Shown: piece after piece, positions 6,946 through 25,670 of the stretch
Layout: every line of letters starts with the position of its first letter
How positions within the stretch are numbered: position 1 is the stretch's first letter
Virus record (IMG/VR): IMGVR_UViG_3300010885_021971
Span: 1-25,670 of that record
From: a virus
Direction: 5' to 3' (one strand)
DNA: 25,670 nucleotides
Made by a program: the position numbers and the translations under genes
The notes under the pieces: generated by a model
Database searches by the model: none
Seen by the model: only the letters and a program-made list of their open reading frames with translations
Told to the model about the DNA's origin: nothing

Positions 6946-9900
6946 ATGACCAAAAGTTATAGAATAAGAACAACACCAGGGATAGATAAAAACATTAGAA
7001 TCAATGTTGAACAAGATTTTGATTTAATAGAAATTTTATCTTTAAAACTTAAACAAGAAGACGTTTATACTCGTTTCTGTGCGGACTACGGAGTAGTTGC
7101 TGGAAGAGTTATTGCAAATGGTGGATTTGGTGTTCCAAATGTGCCTATATCTGTATTCGTACCATTGACCACCCAAGATTCCTCAGACCCCGTAATATCA
7201 ACGTTATATCCATATAAAGCGTTAACAGATAAGAATGAAGACGGTTATAGGTATAATCTATTACCTTATATACAAGAAAATCAAGGACACACACCAACAG
7301 GAACATTTCCTGACGTTAATGATTTATTAACCAGATTAGAGGTACTTGAGGTATATGAAAAATATTATAAGTATACCGTAAGAACAAACGATAGTGGTGA
7401 CTTTATGATTGTAGGGGTTCCTTTAGGTATGCAAAGTGTGGTTATGGATATGGATCTTTCTAATATTGGGTGTTTTTCTCAAAGACCGTCGGATTTAGTT
7501 AGGCAAGGTTTAGGTGTTGAGTCACAATTTGCTGGATCTAATTTTAAATCGTCTGAAAATTTAGATTCATTACCTCAAGTCGTTAATCAGGCTAAAGACG
7601 TGGAAGTGGCCTCTTTTTGGGGTGAGACTGACATTTGTAATGTTGGTATTACTAGAGTTGATTTTGACCTTAGAGATATTGGAGTAGAAATACAACCACA
7701 AGCAATATTTATGGGGTCCATGTTCTCCACAAGTGAGGATGACCCGTTAGGGGTTTATTGTAAACCAACATTTGATTCTGGTAACCTATGTGATTTAGTC
7801 TCTTCCCAAGGGAAGATTTTGGCATTAAGACAAACAATATATAATGATAACGAAGGGTTTCCGGTTATAGAGGAACATAAGTTTGAACAAGGAGGTAATA
7901 TTATCGATGAAAATGGTACGTGGTTAGTTGAGGTGCCTATGAATTTAGATTACGTCTCTACTAATGAATTTGGTGAAGATATATTTTCAAACGACCCCTC
8001 AATTGGTATACCAACAAAAGGTAAATATCGATTTAGAATACAGTATCAAAATGAGGACGGTAATGAAAATAGTATACTGCGTGCAGATTATTTAGTACCA
8101 AATATTAAAGAATATGGGTGGAATAGTGGTAGTATAAATGGTCCGTATAGTCCTGATTTACAACAAAAATCATATGCGTTTAGTTTAGAATGGAAAGATT
8201 ATGGTGAATATTTAACAAACGCTAACTTTACTGGATTTACACAATTAGGTTATCAAATGGTCCAAGAGGCGATTAATTGTGAGGATAGATTTTTTGAATT
8301 TAATTACAATAGAGTTTATACCGTTGCTTCACACATTGATAGATGGAAATGGGGGTATAATAGAGCTAGACATTTAGGGATAAAAGAAATCACAAATAGG
8401 GAATGCTCAACAACCACTAATAGGTTTCCTGTTAATGACGGTGTTAGGAATTTTGATTTTATATTTTTCTTATTTAATTTACTTATTACTGTTTTATCTC
8501 CTGTTTTTATAATTGTTATTATTATTTTACATGTTTTAGCGTATATATATCCTATCATTGTTAGATTTATTAATAAACTTATTGAGTTTATTAATAATGT
8601 TATTTATGGTATTTGTAAGGCCATTCAGTTTATAACGTTTGATGCTAAACCTGAAGGTGGATGTAATAAAGAATCGTTAGCCCCTTTAGTTGAAAACAAT
8701 CCATTTAAAAGGATATCACTACCAATGATATCTTATCCTGATTGTGAGGCTTGTAATTGTGAAGATACTAATATGGTTACTAATACCGAATTTAATCCAT
8801 TTGACTATCTTTTAGTGTCAAATGGTAATTTTGGTCAATTAATAAACTCAAACTCATTAAATGAATTTGTCCCTACCCTTAGTGGGAGTAGTTTAAATAA
8901 TGGAATTAAACAAGGGTTATCGGGATATCAATATCTTTTAAACGCCGCGGCGGCTGGTTATATCGACTTAGACCCTAAATTGGTCAAGTTGCCGATTATT
9001 GAAACCCCTAATCAAGGAGGTGGTTATAAATATTTAGGTGATGACGTTACGTTATCACAGTCATTAAATATGGCAAATTTTAGGAGGAGATATTTTGATA
9101 ATGAGAATATTATCAAAACGACTGTAAATAATTCACCTCCTGGTTCAAATATACCACAACCGTCTAATAGTTTTACCGATTCTATATTGATGATTGTTTG
9201 TGATACGGGTACGTTACAAATATTAAGCGCCGGTGACTTAGTTTCATTTCATAATATTAGTAAAATTCATGACCCAAATTTAACTGGAGGGACTCTAAAC
9301 CAATTCAATAATAAAAAAATAACAGGTAGTACTAACCCTAACCAAACGTCGTTAATTACTAAAACGGTGACCTTTATTACTACTGGCGGTACAAGTGCTA
9401 CCGCTACTTTAAAATTAAGAATTACTGGAGGAACAAAGACTTATGATTTTCCAGCCGGAAATGAATATTTCCAAGTAATTACGGGAGGGACCGCTCAACA
9501 ATTTTCGGGATTAACAAATTTTAATAACCCGAACGGATTGTTAAATAAATATTTGTTTAACAAATCACAAAGAATTAAGTATAACCAACCTTCACCTATT
9601 CCTCCCGGACAGTTAGCTTTTTATCAAAAACCATTTAGTTATTATAGTAATTACCAAAATCAAGAAATTATTTTTTTAAGTCGAGGGGTTGATCCGTATA
9701 CTGAGAAACAAAACATACGATATGATTTATCTATGCTTTTTGGATATACCTTTAACCAAGGGCCTATTGTTGAGGGTAGTTACCATTTAAATATCCCAAT
9801 ACAGCCAACCGCGAATACCGTTATAAATAACGCCATTTGGAGGTCAGGGTATGTTTCGCCTCAATCACATAGTGTGACAAACTCACAAAACGTACCGTAC

Positions 9901-19979: not shown

Positions 19980-22649
19980 ATGAATTGTATTACTGGTTAT
20001 ACTAATGGTGTTTACTCTTATGTTGATTGTTGTGGACTCACAAGAGTTGGGGTATCTTCAGGTGAGACCGTATGTCTTAACCAAGCATATTCCGGTAGTG
20101 TTGTAAACATTGTAATCAACACTGGAAGTACATGTACGACTAATTGTACTGATTTACCGGTTATTGGCTATTATTTTACCGTGACAGGTACTTGCAATTC
20201 GCCAAGAGGGACTATAGTCATAAATCCAATAGGGGGGACTCCGCCGTATACTGTTGACCCTATATACCCAACTGGTCATGGGTTAAATACACAAACAGGT
20301 ACAACTCAAATCACATATACAGGTCTTAGTGCCACAACTTACGTATTTAGATTAAACGATAGTTTAGGGTATCAAAACGCTGAAACCTACATTAATATAT
20401 CTGTTGGTACTTGTTATGAGGGTAATATTATAGATGCTAACGGAACCAATTGTGGATTAACTAACGGTTATCTAACGGTAAGTGGATCATCACTTTTTCC
20501 ACCATACGATTTATTATTATATAAAAATGGAGCATTATCATTAATTGAGACTTCGGAGGCATTTCCATACACTTTTACAGAGTTAGATGCGGGGGTTTAT
20601 TATGTTTTAATTTCGGATAATAGTGTAACTACGGCTAAGACTGAAAATGTGGTAATATCTGCAAGTACTGAAATTAATTTTGGTCTATGGAAAGTTGATA
20701 CCTCAAAATGTTTATTAGATACCGGTAAGTTAGCGGTAACTGGAGTTACAGGTGTTGGACCATATACGTATTTATGGTCTAATGGGCAAACCGGTCAAAC
20801 AATCACTGGATTAACTATCGGGGAGTATTCAGTGACGGTAACCAGCAGAAATGGGTGTGAGCTTACAAAATCAAGTAATGTTGGGTCTGCCGAACAATTA
20901 GGCGTTGGATTAATAAATAACACAACCCCAAGTTGTTTTAATAGTAACGGTAAAATTGAGATAACATTAACGGGAGGTACTGCGCCTTTTTACTATTCTG
21001 CGTCGTCTGGTAATTTTGGGGTTACATTATCAGATACTTTCACAATGAGTGGGTTACCAAGTGGTGACTATTCTATTTTAGTAAAAGATGCTAATTTCTG
21101 TACTTTAAGTATTTTAACAACACTTAACACGGTTAATGGGTTTAGGGACGTTAAAAATGTAATAACAAATTCTGTTTGTAATAAAAATAATGGGTCTTTA
21201 AAAACAACCATTAATGGGTTATATGGGTTTTATTTATATTCTTTATCCGGTCAAAATACAAATGTTGTTTATGAGGAGTATAGTCAAAACCAAAATGTGA
21301 CTTTCAGTGATTTGGTTTCTGATACTTATTTATTAAAAATTTCAGGTCAATCTAGTAGTTGTCTTTATACGGAAAGAATACAAATAAGCGCTATAAACAA
21401 ATTTAATTTAACTGCAACAACAACTCCGTCTTCTTGTGGGTCACCAAACGGGTCGATATCCGTTAAAGTTGGTACTGGATATACGGGACCTTTAGATTAT
21501 ATATTGAGTGATGGTCAAAACCTAATTGATGTTTCGTTTAGTTCTTACACGTTTAATTATTTAACCCCTGGTGGGTATGTATTACAAGTTATCGATTCGG
21601 AAAATTGTATGGTATCTTTGGATTTGAATATACCTTTAAGCGGTAATTTATCGTCAACACTTACTAAGAGTGAATGTAAAAACAGTAATGATGGTATTGC
21701 TACTGTAACCATTTTTGAAGGTGCCCCACCATTCACTTATAATTGGTCAGATAATGTGCCGTCAGGAGGTACGGGAAGTACTGTGACAGGACTTTCAGGT
21801 GGAACATATGACGTAACCGTAACCGACAAAAGTGGGTGTACTAATTATTGGCCTTTTACAATAACTTGTAATCAAGTAATTGTGTCTGGTAGGTCAAGAT
21901 ATAATATTTTTAATAAACCTTTTATTAATACTTCAGGTACTAAGAGGTCGATATCTAAAATGTTGAATGAAGGGTTTATTGATTTAACTACGGGATATAC
22001 TAATTGTATTTTAAATAGTGCCGTTTTAGAGGCTGAGTTTACCATAAATGGTTCGGCACATACACAAACCTTTATATATAGTGATGACGGAGCATGGCAA
22101 AGAGCAATTGAAACCATATTAGAGAGTATTCCACAAATTACTTCATACACCGTTAATGTTTTAAACAATGTGTTAATAATCGTTTGTAATTGTGACCAAA
22201 TGGGTAATAGCTTCTTTAAGTTAGAATTATCAATTACATATGACATTAGTTGTGACCAAGTAAAAACACCGACGCCAACTCCGACAATGACAATGACGCC
22301 TACACCAACACCAACAGTTAGTCCGACACCTACTAGAACACCAACACCAACACCAACACCTGCTGGTTTTGTTTGGTATAGTAATGGTGAATATTACAAT
22401 ACTGCCGATGAGGATGTTTGTACGGATAACTTATGTAATGTTAACCTCTATACTACAGGGTCTTCTATATCAATAGGTAATATAGTTTACACTAACCCGG
22501 CATTAACGACTAAATATATAGGAACTAACTTAGACCCTAAAAATGGTGGATGGGCAAGAATTTATTTATCAAACAGTTGTCCAATAACGACAAGAAATGT
22601 TGTACAAGTTGATGGGGATGGTATTATAATTACAAAGTATACTTGTTAA
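19980..22649 (+). CDS. SprB-repeat tail adhesin with Thr-Pro linker, 889 aa
   Basis: This is a presumed tail fibre/adhesin. After a Cys-rich N-terminus (1-63) come about seven repeats of roughly 80 residues, starting near 64, 145, 234, 307, 388, 475 and 557 and ending near 630. The clearest reads GPYTYLWSNGQTGQTITGLT, then GEYSVTVTSRNGC; the last has APPFTYNWSD and GGTYDVTVTDKSGC. This is the SprB repeat pattern (C...G...GG.PPYTY.WS...L..G.Y.V.V.D..GC) of Bacteroidota gliding adhesins and other surface proteins. Residues 631-760 are a module also seen at the end of the 997-residue protein. At 763-794 is a Thr-Pro-rich mucin-like linker, and at 797-889 a terminal domain with YTNPALT shared with the 1800-residue protein. 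There is no signal peptide, as expected for a virion protein. The leader before the ATG is A/T only. Confidence 0.87.
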   Translation: MNCITGYTNGVYSYVDCCGLTRVGVSSGETVCLNQAYSGSVVNIVINTGSTCTTNCTDLPVIGYYFTVTGTCNSPRGTIVINPIGGTPPYTVDPIYPTGHGLNTQTGTTQITYTGLSATTYVFRLNDSLGYQNAETYINISVGTCYEGNIIDANGTNCGLTNGYLTVSGSSLFPPYDLLLYKNGALSLIETSEAFPYTFTELDAGVYYVLISDNSVTTAKTENVVISASTEINFGLWKVDTSKCLLDTGKLAVTGVTGVGPYTYLWSNGQTGQTITGLTIGEYSVTVTSRNGCELTKSSNVGSAEQLGVGLINNTTPSCFNSNGKIEITLTGGTAPFYYSASSGNFGVTLSDTFTMSGLPSGDYSILVKDANFCTLSILTTLNTVNGFRDVKNVITNSVCNKNNGSLKTTINGLYGFYLYSLSGQNTNVVYEEYSQNQNVTFSDLVSDTYLLKISGQSSSCLYTERIQISAINKFNLTATTTPSSCGSPNGSISVKVGTGYTGPLDYILSDGQNLIDVSFSSYTFNYLTPGGYVLQVIDSENCMVSLDLNIPLSGNLSSTLTKSECKNSNDGIATVTIFEGAPPFTYNWSDNVPSGGTGSTVTGLSGGTYDVTVTDKSGCTNYWPFTITCNQVIVSGRSRYNIFNKPFINTSGTKRSISKMLNEGFIDLTTGYTNCILNSAVLEAEFTINGSAHTQTFIYSDDGAWQRAIETILESIPQITSYTVNVLNNVLIIVCNCDQMGNSFFKLELSITYDISCDQVKTPTPTPTMTMTPTPTPTVSPTPTRTPTPTPTPAGFVWYSNGEYYNTADEDVCTDNLCNVNLYTTGSSISIGNIVYTNPALTTKYIGTNLDPKNGGWARIYLSNSCPITTRNVVQVDGDGIIITKYTC
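22266..22361 (+). repeat. Low-complexity Thr-Pro coding tract in the adhesin gene
   Basis: DNA made largely of ACA/ACG/ACT-CCA/CCG/CCT codons encodes residues 763-794 of the adhesin, almost entirely alternating Thr-Pro with Met, Val, Ser and Arg interruptions. It forms an extended linker between the module at 631-760 and the terminal domain. Confidence 0.85.
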
Positions 22650-22650
22650 T

Positions 22651-22941
22651 ATGTCTAGTTACTTAATAATCACAGGTCAAACAGGAGGAACCCCCCCATA
22701 TACGTTTTATGTTTGTGATGAATATGGTAATAATTGTCAAAACGTTGGAACAACTGGTGGTACTATAACACTCACCCCATTTTTTCAAACCGCGGGAACG
22801 TTGATGGTAAAAACTATTGATAGGGTTGGATGTGAATTTTTTGAAATTGTAAGTTGCCCTACGCCAACACCAACACCGACATTTACACCGACACCAACAC
22901 CGACATTTACACCGACACCAACGCCTACACCAACAGTATAA
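22651..22941 (+). CDS. Small single-repeat SprB-like protein with Thr-Pro tail, 96 aa
   Basis: It starts one base after the adhesin stop (TAA-T-ATG). Residues 1-70 are one SprB-like unit: SYLIITGQTGGTPPYTFYVC at the N-terminus matches the GG.PPYT strand of the large adhesin's repeats, and IDRVGCEFFEIVSC matches their terminal D..GC strand. From about residue 70 the chain is a Pro/Thr tail (PTPTPTF units) running to the stop, encoded by a 24-bp tandem repeat. The tail has no domain after it, unlike in the 889-residue protein. It may be a small decoration protein, a fibre-tip subunit, or a product of domain duplication. The next gene encodes a tail-less paralogue. Confidence 0.75.
   Translation: MSSYLIITGQTGGTPPYTFYVCDEYGNNCQNVGTTGGTITLTPFFQTAGTLMVKTIDRVGCEFFEIVSCPTPTPTPTFTPTPTPTFTPTPTPTPTV
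22868..22915 (+). repeat. Two perfect tandem copies of a 24-bp unit, plus a partial third
   Basis: The unit CACCAACACCGACATTTACA plus CCGA occurs at 22868-22891 and again without change at 22892-22915, with a diverging partial copy from 22916. Being a multiple of three, gain or loss of units changes the Thr-Pro-Phe tail by eight residues without breaking the frame. Confidence 0.9.
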
Positions 22942-22959
22942 AAAAAGGATATTCATCCA

Positions 22960-22966
22960 TATTTAT
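22960..22966 (+). promoter_or_regulatory. TATTTAT motif just before the 73-aa gene
   Basis: TATTTAT lies four bases before the ATG at 22971 in a 29-base gap, next to the short inverted repeat GGAT-ATTC-ATCC (22948-22959). This close to the start it would give a nearly leaderless message if it were a promoter, so it could instead be a translation or processing signal. Confidence 0.25.
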
Positions 22967-22970
22967 TAGT

Positions 22971-23192
22971 ATGATAATATATGTAACCGGGGTAACAAGT
23001 GGGACAAGTCCATATGACGTATTTTTATGTGATACTGGATATACGTCTTGTTTTTTAATATCTGGTAGTTGTCAAATACCACCTACGGTTGTGATTAATA
23101 CCAATTATTTTTTTCCTAATTATAAAAATGTTGGTTTAAAAATAGTAGACACAAAGGGGTGCATTTTTAGAAAGGTTCAGATTTGTCCATAA
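22971..23192 (+). CDS. Small single-repeat SprB-like protein, 73 aa
   Basis: I place the start at ATG 22971. The frame is open further upstream to 22854, but that part is only the Thr-Pro tract of the previous gene read in another frame. The protein MIIYVTGVTSGTSPYDVFLC parallels the 96-residue neighbour (ITGQTGGTPPYTFYVC), and it ends with GLKIVDTKGCIFRKVQICP, parallel to VKTIDRVGCEFFEIVSCP. The two are therefore paralogues of one adhesin repeat. This copy lacks the Thr-Pro tail. It has five cysteines, some probably paired as in the larger repeats. Role unknown; a minor tail or fibre component is the simplest reading. Confidence 0.72.
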   Translation: MIIYVTGVTSGTSPYDVFLCDTGYTSCFLISGSCQIPPTVVINTNYFFPNYKNVGLKIVDTKGCIFRKVQICP

Positions 23193-23194
23193 CT

Positions 23195-23225
23195 AATACC
23201 TTGTTAGGTTTACTATTGTTTTTTT
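23195..23225 (+). terminator. Possible weak terminator after the adhesin block
   Basis: Downstream of the 73-residue gene, ACC-TTGTTA-GGT (around 23198-23209) can form a short stem extended by imperfect AT pairs and is followed, after a few bases, by a run of seven T (23219-23225). The stem is weak, so termination would be partial at best. The 65-base gap also marks the change from tail genes to glycosyltransferases. Confidence 0.35.
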
Positions 23226-23257
23226 ATTCTTAAAACTTATCATGAAGAAAAGCCTTT

Positions 23258-24505
23258 ATGAAAATTTTTATTCAAATTGCATCATACCGTGATCCAGAAT
23301 TAAAACCAACAATTATTAGTTGTGTTGAAAACGCAAAAAATCCTGAAAATTTAGTTTTTGCAATTGCAAAACAATATCATACCGATGATAGTTTTGATGA
23401 TTTATCAGAATATGATGAAGATGAAAGGTTTAAAATCCTTAATATCCCTCACCAAGAATCTAAAGGTGCGTGTTGGGCTAGACACCAAATTCAACAATTA
23501 TACAATAATGAAGAGTACACTCTTCAAATAGATTCCCATATGAGATTTGAAAAAAATTGGGATGAAATGTTGATTAATATGTTAAATCAATTAAAAGATA
23601 TGGGCATTCCAAAACCATTATTAACGTCTTACGTTTCATCGTATAATCCACAAAATGACCCAAAAGATAGAGTTATGGTTCCTTGGAGAATGGCCTTTGA
23701 TAAATTCATTCCTGAAGGTGCGGTATTCTTTTTACCTGAGACCATACCTAATTGGGAAGAAATTGATACTCCGGTACCTGCAAGATTTTATTCTGCACAT
23801 TTTTGTTTTACTTTAGGACAATTTGCAAAAGAAGTCCAACATAATCCTGAATTTTATTTTCATGGTGAAGAAATCTCAATTGCCGTTAGAGCGTTTACTC
23901 ATGGTTATGATTTATTCCACCCACATAGAATTGTTGCTTGGCATGAGTATACTCGAAATGGTAGAACAAAACAATGGGATGACGATAAAGAATGGCATTT
24001 AAAAAATGATTCATCACACCTATTAAATAGACAGTTATTTGGTATGGACGGATTAACTCAAGAAGGTCATGACGGAAAATATGGGTTTGGTACCGAAAGA
24101 ACACTTAGAGATTATGAAATATACTCTGGGTTATTATTTGAAAAACGTTCCGTACAAGATTATACTTTACAGAAAAAATACCCACCAAACCCTTACGACT
24201 ATCAAAATGAAGAAGAATGGATTAATAGTTTTACTAAAAAAGTGACTAAGTGTTTTACTATTGATAAAGAAATGGTTCCCGAGAATGATTATGAATTTTG
24301 GGTTGTTGCGTTTAATAGAGAAGGTGGTGAGACTATATTTAGACAAGATGAGGATGTCAATGAAGTAAGAAAATTATTACAAGGTGACAGTCAAAAAATT
24401 AAAATATGTAGAACATTCCAAACTGCTGAGACACCACATACGTGGGTATTATGGCCATACTCAACATCTAAAGGGTGGTGTACAAAAATAGAGAGAGTAT
24501 TATGA
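23258..24505 (+). CDS. GT60-like glycosyltransferase (GlcNAc-transferase family PF11397)
   Basis: The N-terminus IFIQIASYRDPELKPTI, then ACWARHQIQQLYNNEEYTLQ and the DSHMRF motif (92-97), form the conserved core of Glycosyltransferase (GlcNAc). That family includes cytoplasmic Skp1 GlcNAc-transferase of Dictyostelium, which glycosylates hydroxyproline, and T. cruzi polypeptide GlcNAc-transferase, which modifies mucin threonine. Asp92-Ser-His94 acts as the DxD-like metal/nucleotide-sugar motif. EFYFHGEEISIAVRAFTHGYDLFHPH and GFGTERTLRDYEIYSG are further family blocks. The extra C-terminal part (from about 310) is an uncharacterised domain ending KGWCTKIERVL. No signal or membrane segment is seen, so it should act in the cytoplasm, where virions assemble. 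Likely substrates: phage structural proteins, a sugar acceptor, or less likely DNA. The ATG follows AAGAAAAGCCTTT. Its TGA overlaps the next ATG. Confidence 0.88.
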   Translation: MKIFIQIASYRDPELKPTIISCVENAKNPENLVFAIAKQYHTDDSFDDLSEYDEDERFKILNIPHQESKGACWARHQIQQLYNNEEYTLQIDSHMRFEKNWDEMLINMLNQLKDMGIPKPLLTSYVSSYNPQNDPKDRVMVPWRMAFDKFIPEGAVFFLPETIPNWEEIDTPVPARFYSAHFCFTLGQFAKEVQHNPEFYFHGEEISIAVRAFTHGYDLFHPHRIVAWHEYTRNGRTKQWDDDKEWHLKNDSSHLLNRQLFGMDGLTQEGHDGKYGFGTERTLRDYEIYSGLLFEKRSVQDYTLQKKYPPNPYDYQNEEEWINSFTKKVTKCFTIDKEMVPENDYEFWVVAFNREGGETIFRQDEDVNEVRKLLQGDSQKIKICRTFQTAETPHTWVLWPYSTSKGWCTKIERVL

Positions 24506-25107
24506 CGGTAGAAGCAGTGGTTGCTAAATACAATGAAGATGTATCTTGGACAAAAAAACTTAAGTATAAAGTAACTATTTACAATAAAAACGAAGCGGAT
24601 AATCATTTATTTGAAAGAAATCTGTTAAATTACGGTAAAGATGCACATACTCACTTACACCATATTGTAACAAATTGGTACAATTTAGCTGATTACACAA
24701 TATTCTTACAAGGAAATCCATTTGAACATGATTGTGAAACTTGTGTAGAATTTATCAATGATTGTGATTTTACCAAACCATTTTATCCAATTGGACCAAC
24801 TTACATTAGAGATAATGATGGCTGTATTAAGCAAGCTATAGATTATTGTGAAAAAATGGAAATTGAATACAAATTGCCATTTATGTTTATAGGTGGTATG
24901 CAATGTATTGTAAAGAAAGAACAAATTAAGAAAAGATCATTAGATTTTTATGTAAAACTAATGGAAAGTATAGCAAAAAACATTTCGACTTCTTCGTTTT
25001 CTGGAGGAGCACATGGAAACGATCCACAAATATGGGCACTAGAATATAGTTGGCCTACAATATTTGGTGTAAATGAAATGTTAACACATAAATTACATAA
25101 TTGTTAA
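24502..25107 (+). CDS. DUF3431-family protein, probable glycosyltransferase-related, 201 aa
   Basis: The start is ATG 24502, overlapping the previous stop as ATGA; an in-frame GTG at 24475 lies inside the preceding gene and is less likely. EAVVAKYNEDVSWTKKL at the N-terminus, then HTHLHHIVTNWYNLADYTIF followed by LQGNPFEHD, match the DUF3431 family found in fungi, bacteria and large viruses. Members are usually found next to glycosyltransferases and are thought to have a GT-like fold, though activity is not established. GGAHGNDPQIWALEYSWPTIFG ends the conserved region. There is no membrane segment. Translational coupling to the GT60-like gene suggests a shared glycan pathway. Confidence 0.83.
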   Translation: MTVEAVVAKYNEDVSWTKKLKYKVTIYNKNEADNHLFERNLLNYGKDAHTHLHHIVTNWYNLADYTIFLQGNPFEHDCETCVEFINDCDFTKPFYPIGPTYIRDNDGCIKQAIDYCEKMEIEYKLPFMFIGGMQCIVKKEQIKKRSLDFYVKLMESIAKNISTSSFSGGAHGNDPQIWALEYSWPTIFGVNEMLTHKLHNC

Positions 25108-25109
25108 AA

Positions 25110-25670
25110 ATGAAAAAAGTTTTAGTGGGGTTATCAAACAATATTTCCCAAAACATAACAAAAATAAAAGTATGGTCCCATAGTTTTAAAGCGCATACTA
25201 ATGGGGATGTTGTTTTACTTTGTGCCAACACCAGTGACGATGAGATACAAATGTGTCACGAATTGGGTATTATACCTATCCCTGTGATTGTTGAAGATAC
25301 TTGGTATATTAATAATAAAAGACTTAAACATACATTAGATTTTATTAATGAATCCGATTACGATTTATTTATGGTTACAGATGTGTTTGACGTTGCATTT
25401 CAAGGAGACCCATTTATTAAAATGAATGATGAATATGATGTATTTGTTGGTTCTGAGGGGTTAAGAATTAATGAAGAACCGTGGAATGGTGATGTTATTT
25501 CTAAAGTTTTCCCTGAAGATTTAAATATTTGTATAACTCACGACATTATATGTTCAGGAGTTATTGGTGGTAGAAAAGACGCATTAATTAAGGTATATAG
25601 TAAATTAAATGGTATGTGTGAGAATAGTAATAACTCCCACAACATAAAAGACCAAGCTGCATTAATAATA
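25110..25670 (+). CDS. Putative GT-A-type glycosyltransferase, N-terminal 187 aa (3' end outside window)
   Basis: The frame opens with ATG two bases after the preceding stop and stays open to the right edge. The pattern is GT-A-like: an initial beta strand MKKVLVGLSNN, a region of alternating strands and helices, and a central YDLFMVTDVFDVAFQGDP in which the D-x-x-D portion (TDVFDV) follows a hydrophobic strand, the usual place of the metal-binding DxD-type motif. A later stretch, ICSGVIGGRKDALIKVY, resembles the acceptor-side loop of small glycosyltransferases (SGVIGG...). I cannot assign a CAZy family. By context it is the third gene of the glycan cluster. Confidence 0.72.
   Translation, partial: MKKVLVGLSNNISQNITKIKVWSHSFKAHTNGDVVLLCANTSDDEIQMCHELGIIPIPVIVEDTWYINNKRLKHTLDFINESDYDLFMVTDVFDVAFQGDPFIKMNDEYDVFVGSEGLRINEEPWNGDVISKVFPEDLNICITHDIICSGVIGGRKDALIKVYSKLNGMCENSNNSHNIKDQAALII

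Follow-up and report, generated by a model that had tools for sequence, protein, structure and literature searches.

Thr-Pro tracts and a GT60-type enzyme in a tail module

We analysed a 25,670-base IMG/VR virus contig, referred to here in its entirety as the window, whose right part encodes a glycosyltransferase of GT60 type downstream of proteins with long threonine-proline (Thr-Pro) tracts. An initial annotation of this DNA had proposed that the enzyme glycosylates the phage's own tail adhesins. From left to right, the window encodes a DnaB-type helicase, a ribonucleotide reductase, gp25 and gp6-like baseplate proteins and large unassigned proteins; these are followed, in order, by an 889-amino-acid (aa) SprB-repeat protein, a 96-aa protein, a 73-aa protein, the GT60-like enzyme, a DUF3431 protein and a truncated glycosyltransferase-like open reading frame (ORF). 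The tract proteins sit within the tail module, together with the gp25 and gp6-like genes, and may be present in virions.

The 889-aa protein (19980..22649, plus strand, as are all window features below unless stated otherwise) contains SprB repeats (PF13573, E 2e-22) and, at residues 763-796, the Thr-Pro tract TPTPTPTMTMTPTPTPTVSPTPTRTPTPTPTPAG (22266..22367). Homologues of this protein occupy positions -3 to -6 relative to GT60 in 29 loci. The 96-aa protein (22651..22941) has a small conserved domain followed by a C-terminal Thr-Pro tract at residues about 70-95 (22858..22935). Both tracts are thus present as initially annotated, and both proteins are proposed acceptors. Their genes had also been placed directly upstream of the glycosyltransferase: they do lie upstream, but a gene for a 73-aa protein without a tract (22971..23192) intervenes. 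By alignment, this small protein shares homology with the N-terminal domain found in relatives of 378 aa (locus L003) and 171 aa (locus L013), which run on into a Thr-Pro tract exactly where the window copy ends, indicating that the window holds a shortened copy. The window tracts themselves show the dense Thr/Pro repeat of a mucin-like acceptor. They are not a compositional accident, because none of 736 genes in 80 control contigs chosen for a Pro-Glu dipeptide repeat qualified as bearing a Thr-Pro tract, and because synonymous Thr and Pro codons vary along the window tracts. We set aside an antisense Cys/Arg-rich ORF (22663-22956, minus strand), which is merely the reverse reading of a Thr-Pro tract.

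The 415-aa enzyme (23258..24505, ATG start) is the proposed initiating polypeptide N-acetylglucosaminyl (GlcNAc) or N-acetylhexosaminyl (HexNAc) transferase. It matched PF11397, the Pfam family that we use as a stand-in for CAZy family GT60, with an E value of 2.2e-68 and 231.8 bits (family cut-off, 21), and phrog_24687 with an E value of 8e-164, which confirms the initial assignment as GT60-like. Six residues, D92, S93, H94, E205, H229 and E230, are invariant across 38 viral homologues: they comprise the Asp92-Ser93-His94 (DSH) motif (23531..23539), a likely metal and uridine diphosphate (UDP) site; Glu205 of an FHGEE motif (23870..23872); and, in an HEY motif, His229 (23942..23944), a likely metal ligand, with E230. 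An AlphaFold2 (AF2) model of the enzyme reached a predicted local distance difference test score (pLDDT) of 92.5. When this model was compared with the PDB by Foldseek, the top 35 matches were all polypeptide N-acetylgalactosamine (GalNAc) transferases (E about 1e-10 to 1e-8; template modelling (TM) scores, 0.44-0.54). Polypeptide GalNAc-transferases initiate mucin-type O-glycosylation and bind metal via a DXH motif; by analogy, DSH in the window enzyme suggests a metal-binding motif of the DXH kind. Searches of PDB sequences with the enzyme, both by single-sequence phmmer and with a profile, gave no match, although the PDB includes GT27 structures. Judged by its sequence and predicted model, the enzyme is intact, with a GT-A fold and a conserved metal/nucleotide motif, and it is no member of GT27 by sequence while being GT27-like by fold. 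Together, the fold, the intact catalytic residues and the surrounding genes make a polypeptide a better-supported acceptor than DNA or lipid.

Linkage of GT60 to Thr-Pro tracts in viruses and bacteria

To the initial annotation we owe the suggestion that GT60 and Thr-Pro tracts might co-occur in other phages. We kept 80 of the 254 viral stretches that encode relatives of the window GT60, and a second query with a 40%-identical GT60 variant added 60 loci, for 140 in all. Dereplication by enzyme identity left 68 loci at 90% and 14 at 70%, and expected counts were obtained by placing tract genes at random within the same locus. The contigs are fragments and the sequences related, and the p-values ignore the remaining kinship of loci. 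A Thr-Pro tract was present in 120 of the 140 loci. The gene immediately upstream of GT60 bore a tract in 24 of 68 loci (7.1 expected) and, at the stricter dereplication, in 6 of 14 (1.3 expected, p 7e-4); similarly, tract genes made up 61 of the 253 genes within two genes of GT60 and 43 of the 812 farther away (p 6e-16). The association also appeared when contigs were not chosen for GT60: of 50 contigs selected solely for a Thr-Pro repeat, 10 contained PF11397, compared with none of 50 Pro-Glu contigs (p 0.001). Among 29 contigs with a related reductase, tracts occurred in 10 of 11 with GT60 and in 6 of 18 without it (p 0.006). Homologues of a 997-aa tail protein, considered as a GT60-negative control, were too few, and all that reached the region carried GT60 and tracts. 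Two records filed under bacterial metagenome-assembled genomes (MAGs), L486 and L523, look phage-like, with adhesins, internal virion-like proteins and GT60; in this further marine lineage, GT60 and a second transferase adjoin tract adhesins.

Complete genomes gave the same picture. XacN1, RAS14 and CM1, jumbo phages of Xanthomonas and Stenotrophomonas, encode GT60 together with 29, 19 and 19 tract motifs, respectively, while 11 jumbo relatives, two of them Xanthomonas phages, have neither. In XacN1, tracts lie in large proteins such as ORF325, ORF350, ORF384 and, close to the gene for the tail sheath, ORF369, 370 and 372. From a proteomic analysis, the authors of the XacN1 study reported at least two glycoproteins and suggested that phage glycosyltransferases were possibly responsible (PMC5852040).

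The positive result extends to bacteria. GT60 relatives are encoded in 209 bacterial stretches. Mucin-like genes were 10 of 151 within two genes of GT60 and 4 of 425 farther off (p 4e-4; the set counted includes the phage-like L486), with examples in a Saprospiraceae MAG, Jiulongibacter and Gemmatimonas. In the Gemmatimonas locus (L484), the gene directly upstream of GT60 (9221-9874) encodes a 217-aa protein with a PqqD-like N-terminus and a mucin-like C-terminal tail, and PqqD is among the Pfam matches of bacterial GT60 neighbours. In all six Burkholderia-type or Neisseriaceae loci tested (L491, L504, L507, L510, L511, L513), a fimbrial-domain protein is encoded directly upstream of GT60, and five of the six proteins have an MrkD-like receptor-binding domain; some loci of this kind also have type VI secretion ImpA genes in the vicinity. 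In a deltaproteobacterium, GT60 is fused to a radical SAM-SPASM domain (L542:6805-8673, scanned), a fusion that, by analogy with peptide-modifying pathways, points to peptide substrates. Similar 622-aa proteins occur in L537-L539 and L543.

Acceptor residue, extension cassette and competing explanations

If the tracts are acceptors, the sugar could be carried by Thr or by hydroxylated Pro. Within tracts, we counted 726 substitutions of Pro and 344 of Thr, 95 of the latter to Ser. That Thr is replaced less than Pro, and in part by Ser, fits a need for a hydroxyl group. GT60-positive and GT60-negative tracts were not clearly separated in this respect (odds ratio 1.3, p 0.012), and the sequence conservation of Thr over Pro is weakly suggestive of Thr as the acceptor. 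Eleven related records with GT60 contain no PF13640-type prolyl hydroxylase (other oxygenase families were not searched and host enzymes are not excluded), which makes a hydroxyproline acceptor less likely.

Downstream of GT60, and overlapping its stop codon, lies the gene for the DUF3431 protein (24502..25107; PF11913, 4.9e-13), a putative chain-extending enzyme. The ORF that follows (25110..25670) is cut by the contig end and spans 272 aa in near relatives; it is glycosyltransferase-like by motif reading, had no Pfam match, and gave an AF2 model of pLDDT 49 with four sequences, so its fold search was not used. The two further putative transferases suggest a glycan longer than the single +203 Da addition that had been expected. 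Across loci, Pfam matches among the downstream neighbours of GT60 include FkbM and other methyltransferases, GT2, GT25, GT10, GT11, sulfotransferase, UDP-galactopyranose mutase and DUF3431, and the XacN1 cassette includes a carbamoyltransferase. UDP-galactopyranose mutase, present in one cassette, parallels the galactofuranose of Trypanosoma cruzi mucins; a simple motif search did not place it. That GT60 persists while its neighbours change suggests that the first sugar is fixed and the outer glycan variable; this persistence arises partly by construction, as loci were picked by GT60. In a near relative of the window phage, the same locus carries a GT60 only 40% identical (L088:18401-19594): the gene has been swapped for another of its kind, not lost.

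Of 69 viral loci, 31 have an HtrL_YibB gene close to GT60, as do XacN1 and many bacterial loci; the literature on HtrL_YibB concerns lipooligosaccharide and unrelated contexts. In Myxococcota and others, HtrL_YibB and GT60 are fused. Such fusions suggest that HtrL_YibB acts on the GT60 product. The fused genes are L503:17-3649, L527:10001-12910, L534:3652-6897, L536:2756-6019 and L489:943-3114, from Myxococcota plus a Vicingus MAG in which the domain order is reversed.

We consider it likely that the window encodes a mucin-type O-glycosylation system, borne by the phage and active in the cytoplasm, which targets the Thr-Pro stalks of the phage's own tail proteins and is extended by a variable cassette. 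In this proposal, GT60 would move an N-acetylhexosamine, most likely GlcNAc, from a UDP-sugar to Thr hydroxyls in the tracts of freshly synthesised tail-module proteins, either ahead of virion assembly or in its course. The variable downstream transferases would then build on this initial sugar, so that the glycan differs from phage to phage. Densely glycosylated stalks may be extended, protease-resistant and variable at the surface, and would both hold binding domains out and shield them. We give even odds to the broader proposal that GT60, HtrL_YibB and a variable extension cassette form a counterpart of mucin-type O-glycosylation that is widespread in prokaryotes and phages, is cytoplasmic and is directed at Thr-Pro-rich stalks of adhesins and tail proteins. 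Phages would carry interchangeable versions of it, so that every virion acquires a distinct glycan coat.

Several observations weigh against tract glycosylation by GT60. GT60 is absent from 40 of the 50 tract-bearing contigs, the same 6 of 18 related-reductase contigs bear a tract without it, and 11 of the 68 GT60 loci have no tract within 10 kb; tracts are thus frequent in the absence of GT60, and the link between the two is not an obligate one. The self-glycosylation initially proposed is partly supported, with co-occurrence, fold, catalytic residues and context in its favour and the many tracts without GT60 on the other side. Because the tail module houses both GT60 and the tracts, the linkage may be due partly to common location, and residual relatedness among loci is ignored by the p-values of the linkage tests. 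The clean contrast between long jumbo-phage genomes probably reflects a single evolutionary event, as XacN1, RAS14 and CM1 form one clade by polymerase identity. The glycoproteins reported for XacN1 may or may not be its tract-bearing proteins. GT-A folds resemble one another, TM scores are only about 0.5, and further GT-A enzymes, and with them the teichoic-acid transferase TarS, match lower in the list; the fold match is therefore support and not proof. A Thr-over-Pro bias is also seen without GT60, in weaker form (332 Pro and 208 Thr replacements). Finally, the literature that we searched reports no measured transfer for any phage or bacterial GT60.

Some of these points would fit tracts that serve as stiff, unmodified linkers in fast-evolving tail proteins, with the GT60 cassette as cargo of the same variable region doing another job: most tract contigs lack GT60, some GT60 loci lack tracts, and the Thr-over-Pro bias also appears where GT60 is absent. 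We think this unlikely. The gene adjoining GT60 is enriched three- to fourfold in tracts over other genes of the same locus, GT60 and tracts are present or absent together in complete jumbo genomes, and the same link exists in bacteria that lack a tail module; moreover, a stiff proline linker would be expected to conserve Pro, not Thr. Slightly less probable again is modification of virion or secreted proteins outside the tracts, for example at Ser/Thr of binding domains, with the tracts incidental. Several upstream tail proteins do lack tracts despite GT60, and the Burkholderia-type enzyme adjoins fimbrial adhesins without a clean tract, but the linkage and co-occurrence of tracts with GT60 argue against this explanation. 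Glycosylation of hydroxyproline, following the action of a prolyl hydroxylase on the tracts, has a precedent in the GT60 enzyme Gnt1 (PMC6939170), and the tracts are half proline; it appears very improbable given that Pro positions are the less conserved ones and that the 11 GT60 records lack PF13640, other oxygenase families and host enzymes aside. Equally remote is a cassette that glycosylates phage DNA or a host surface polysaccharide (for superinfection exclusion or serotype change): phage glycosyltransferases are known to serve both purposes, publications on lipooligosaccharide loci mention HtrL, and the neighbours include GT25 and capsule-type enzymes. Against this, the 25 commonest Pfam matches of 99 scanned downstream neighbours include no flippase or polyprenol-phosphate transferase, the cassette lies within the tail module, polypeptide transferases give the best matches in fold, and the radical SAM-SPASM partner of the deltaproteobacterial enzyme is of a type that acts on peptides.

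If GT60 does glycosylate the Thr-Pro stalks, then mucin-type O-glycosylation, which has been described for the GT60 and GT27 enzymes of eukaryotes, also exists in prokaryotes and viruses, and long Thr-Pro tracts, a recurrent unexplained feature of phage tail proteins, gain a function. It would bear on the making and display of phage tail proteins and on their recognition by hosts and antibodies, and would offer a simple cytoplasmic enzyme for putting sugars on proteins in bacteria. Isolated phages allow a direct test of the proposal, and one set of mass-spectrometry data, on XacN1 virions, is public (ProteomeXchange PXD008065, named in PMC5852040).

Comparison with known glycosylation systems

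GT27 polypeptide GalNAc-transferases provide the best solved-fold matches to the GT60 model and likewise use a DXH metal motif; they differ in that the window enzyme has no sequence match to them, and their lectin domain is unmatched in the model as far as examined. Within GT60 itself, TcOGNT1 of T. cruzi is a UDP-GlcNAc:polypeptide alpha-GlcNAc-transferase that places alpha-GlcNAc on Thr of mucins (PMC9472816). It belongs to the same Pfam family, acts on Thr of mucin-like acceptors and has its product extended by further transferases, as we propose for the window. However, TcOGNT1 works in the Golgi on secreted surface mucins, whereas the window enzyme is phage-encoded, has no compartments and lies beside tail genes. 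Skp1 Gnt1 of Dictyostelium and Toxoplasma, also of GT60, is a cytoplasmic hydroxyproline GlcNAc-transferase (PMC6939170). It shares with the window enzyme the family and, as proposed, a protein acceptor and a cytoplasmic location; unlike the phage enzyme, with which no PF13640-type hydroxylase was found in the 11 records, it requires prolyl hydroxylation.

We found no paper that connects phage Thr-Pro tracts with glycosylation. Among phages, XacN1 resembles the window, with a GT60 45% identical and many Thr-Pro tract proteins, and has reported glycoproteins; in the available passages, its authors noted only phage glycosyltransferases as a possible cause, with no mention of tracts or of a GT60-acceptor link (PMC5852040). 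Mycobacteriophage virions (Freeman et al. 2023, doi 10.1016/j.chom.2023.05.028, as described in PMC12619734) carry glycans at the C-termini of capsid and tail tube subunits. That system resembles the one predicted here in placing glycans on phage virion proteins, and by the same description is set apart by its targets, which are capsid and tail tube rather than Thr-Pro stalks. Phage virion glycosylation is already known; the enzyme class, the Thr-Pro acceptor and the module common to phages and bacteria look new.

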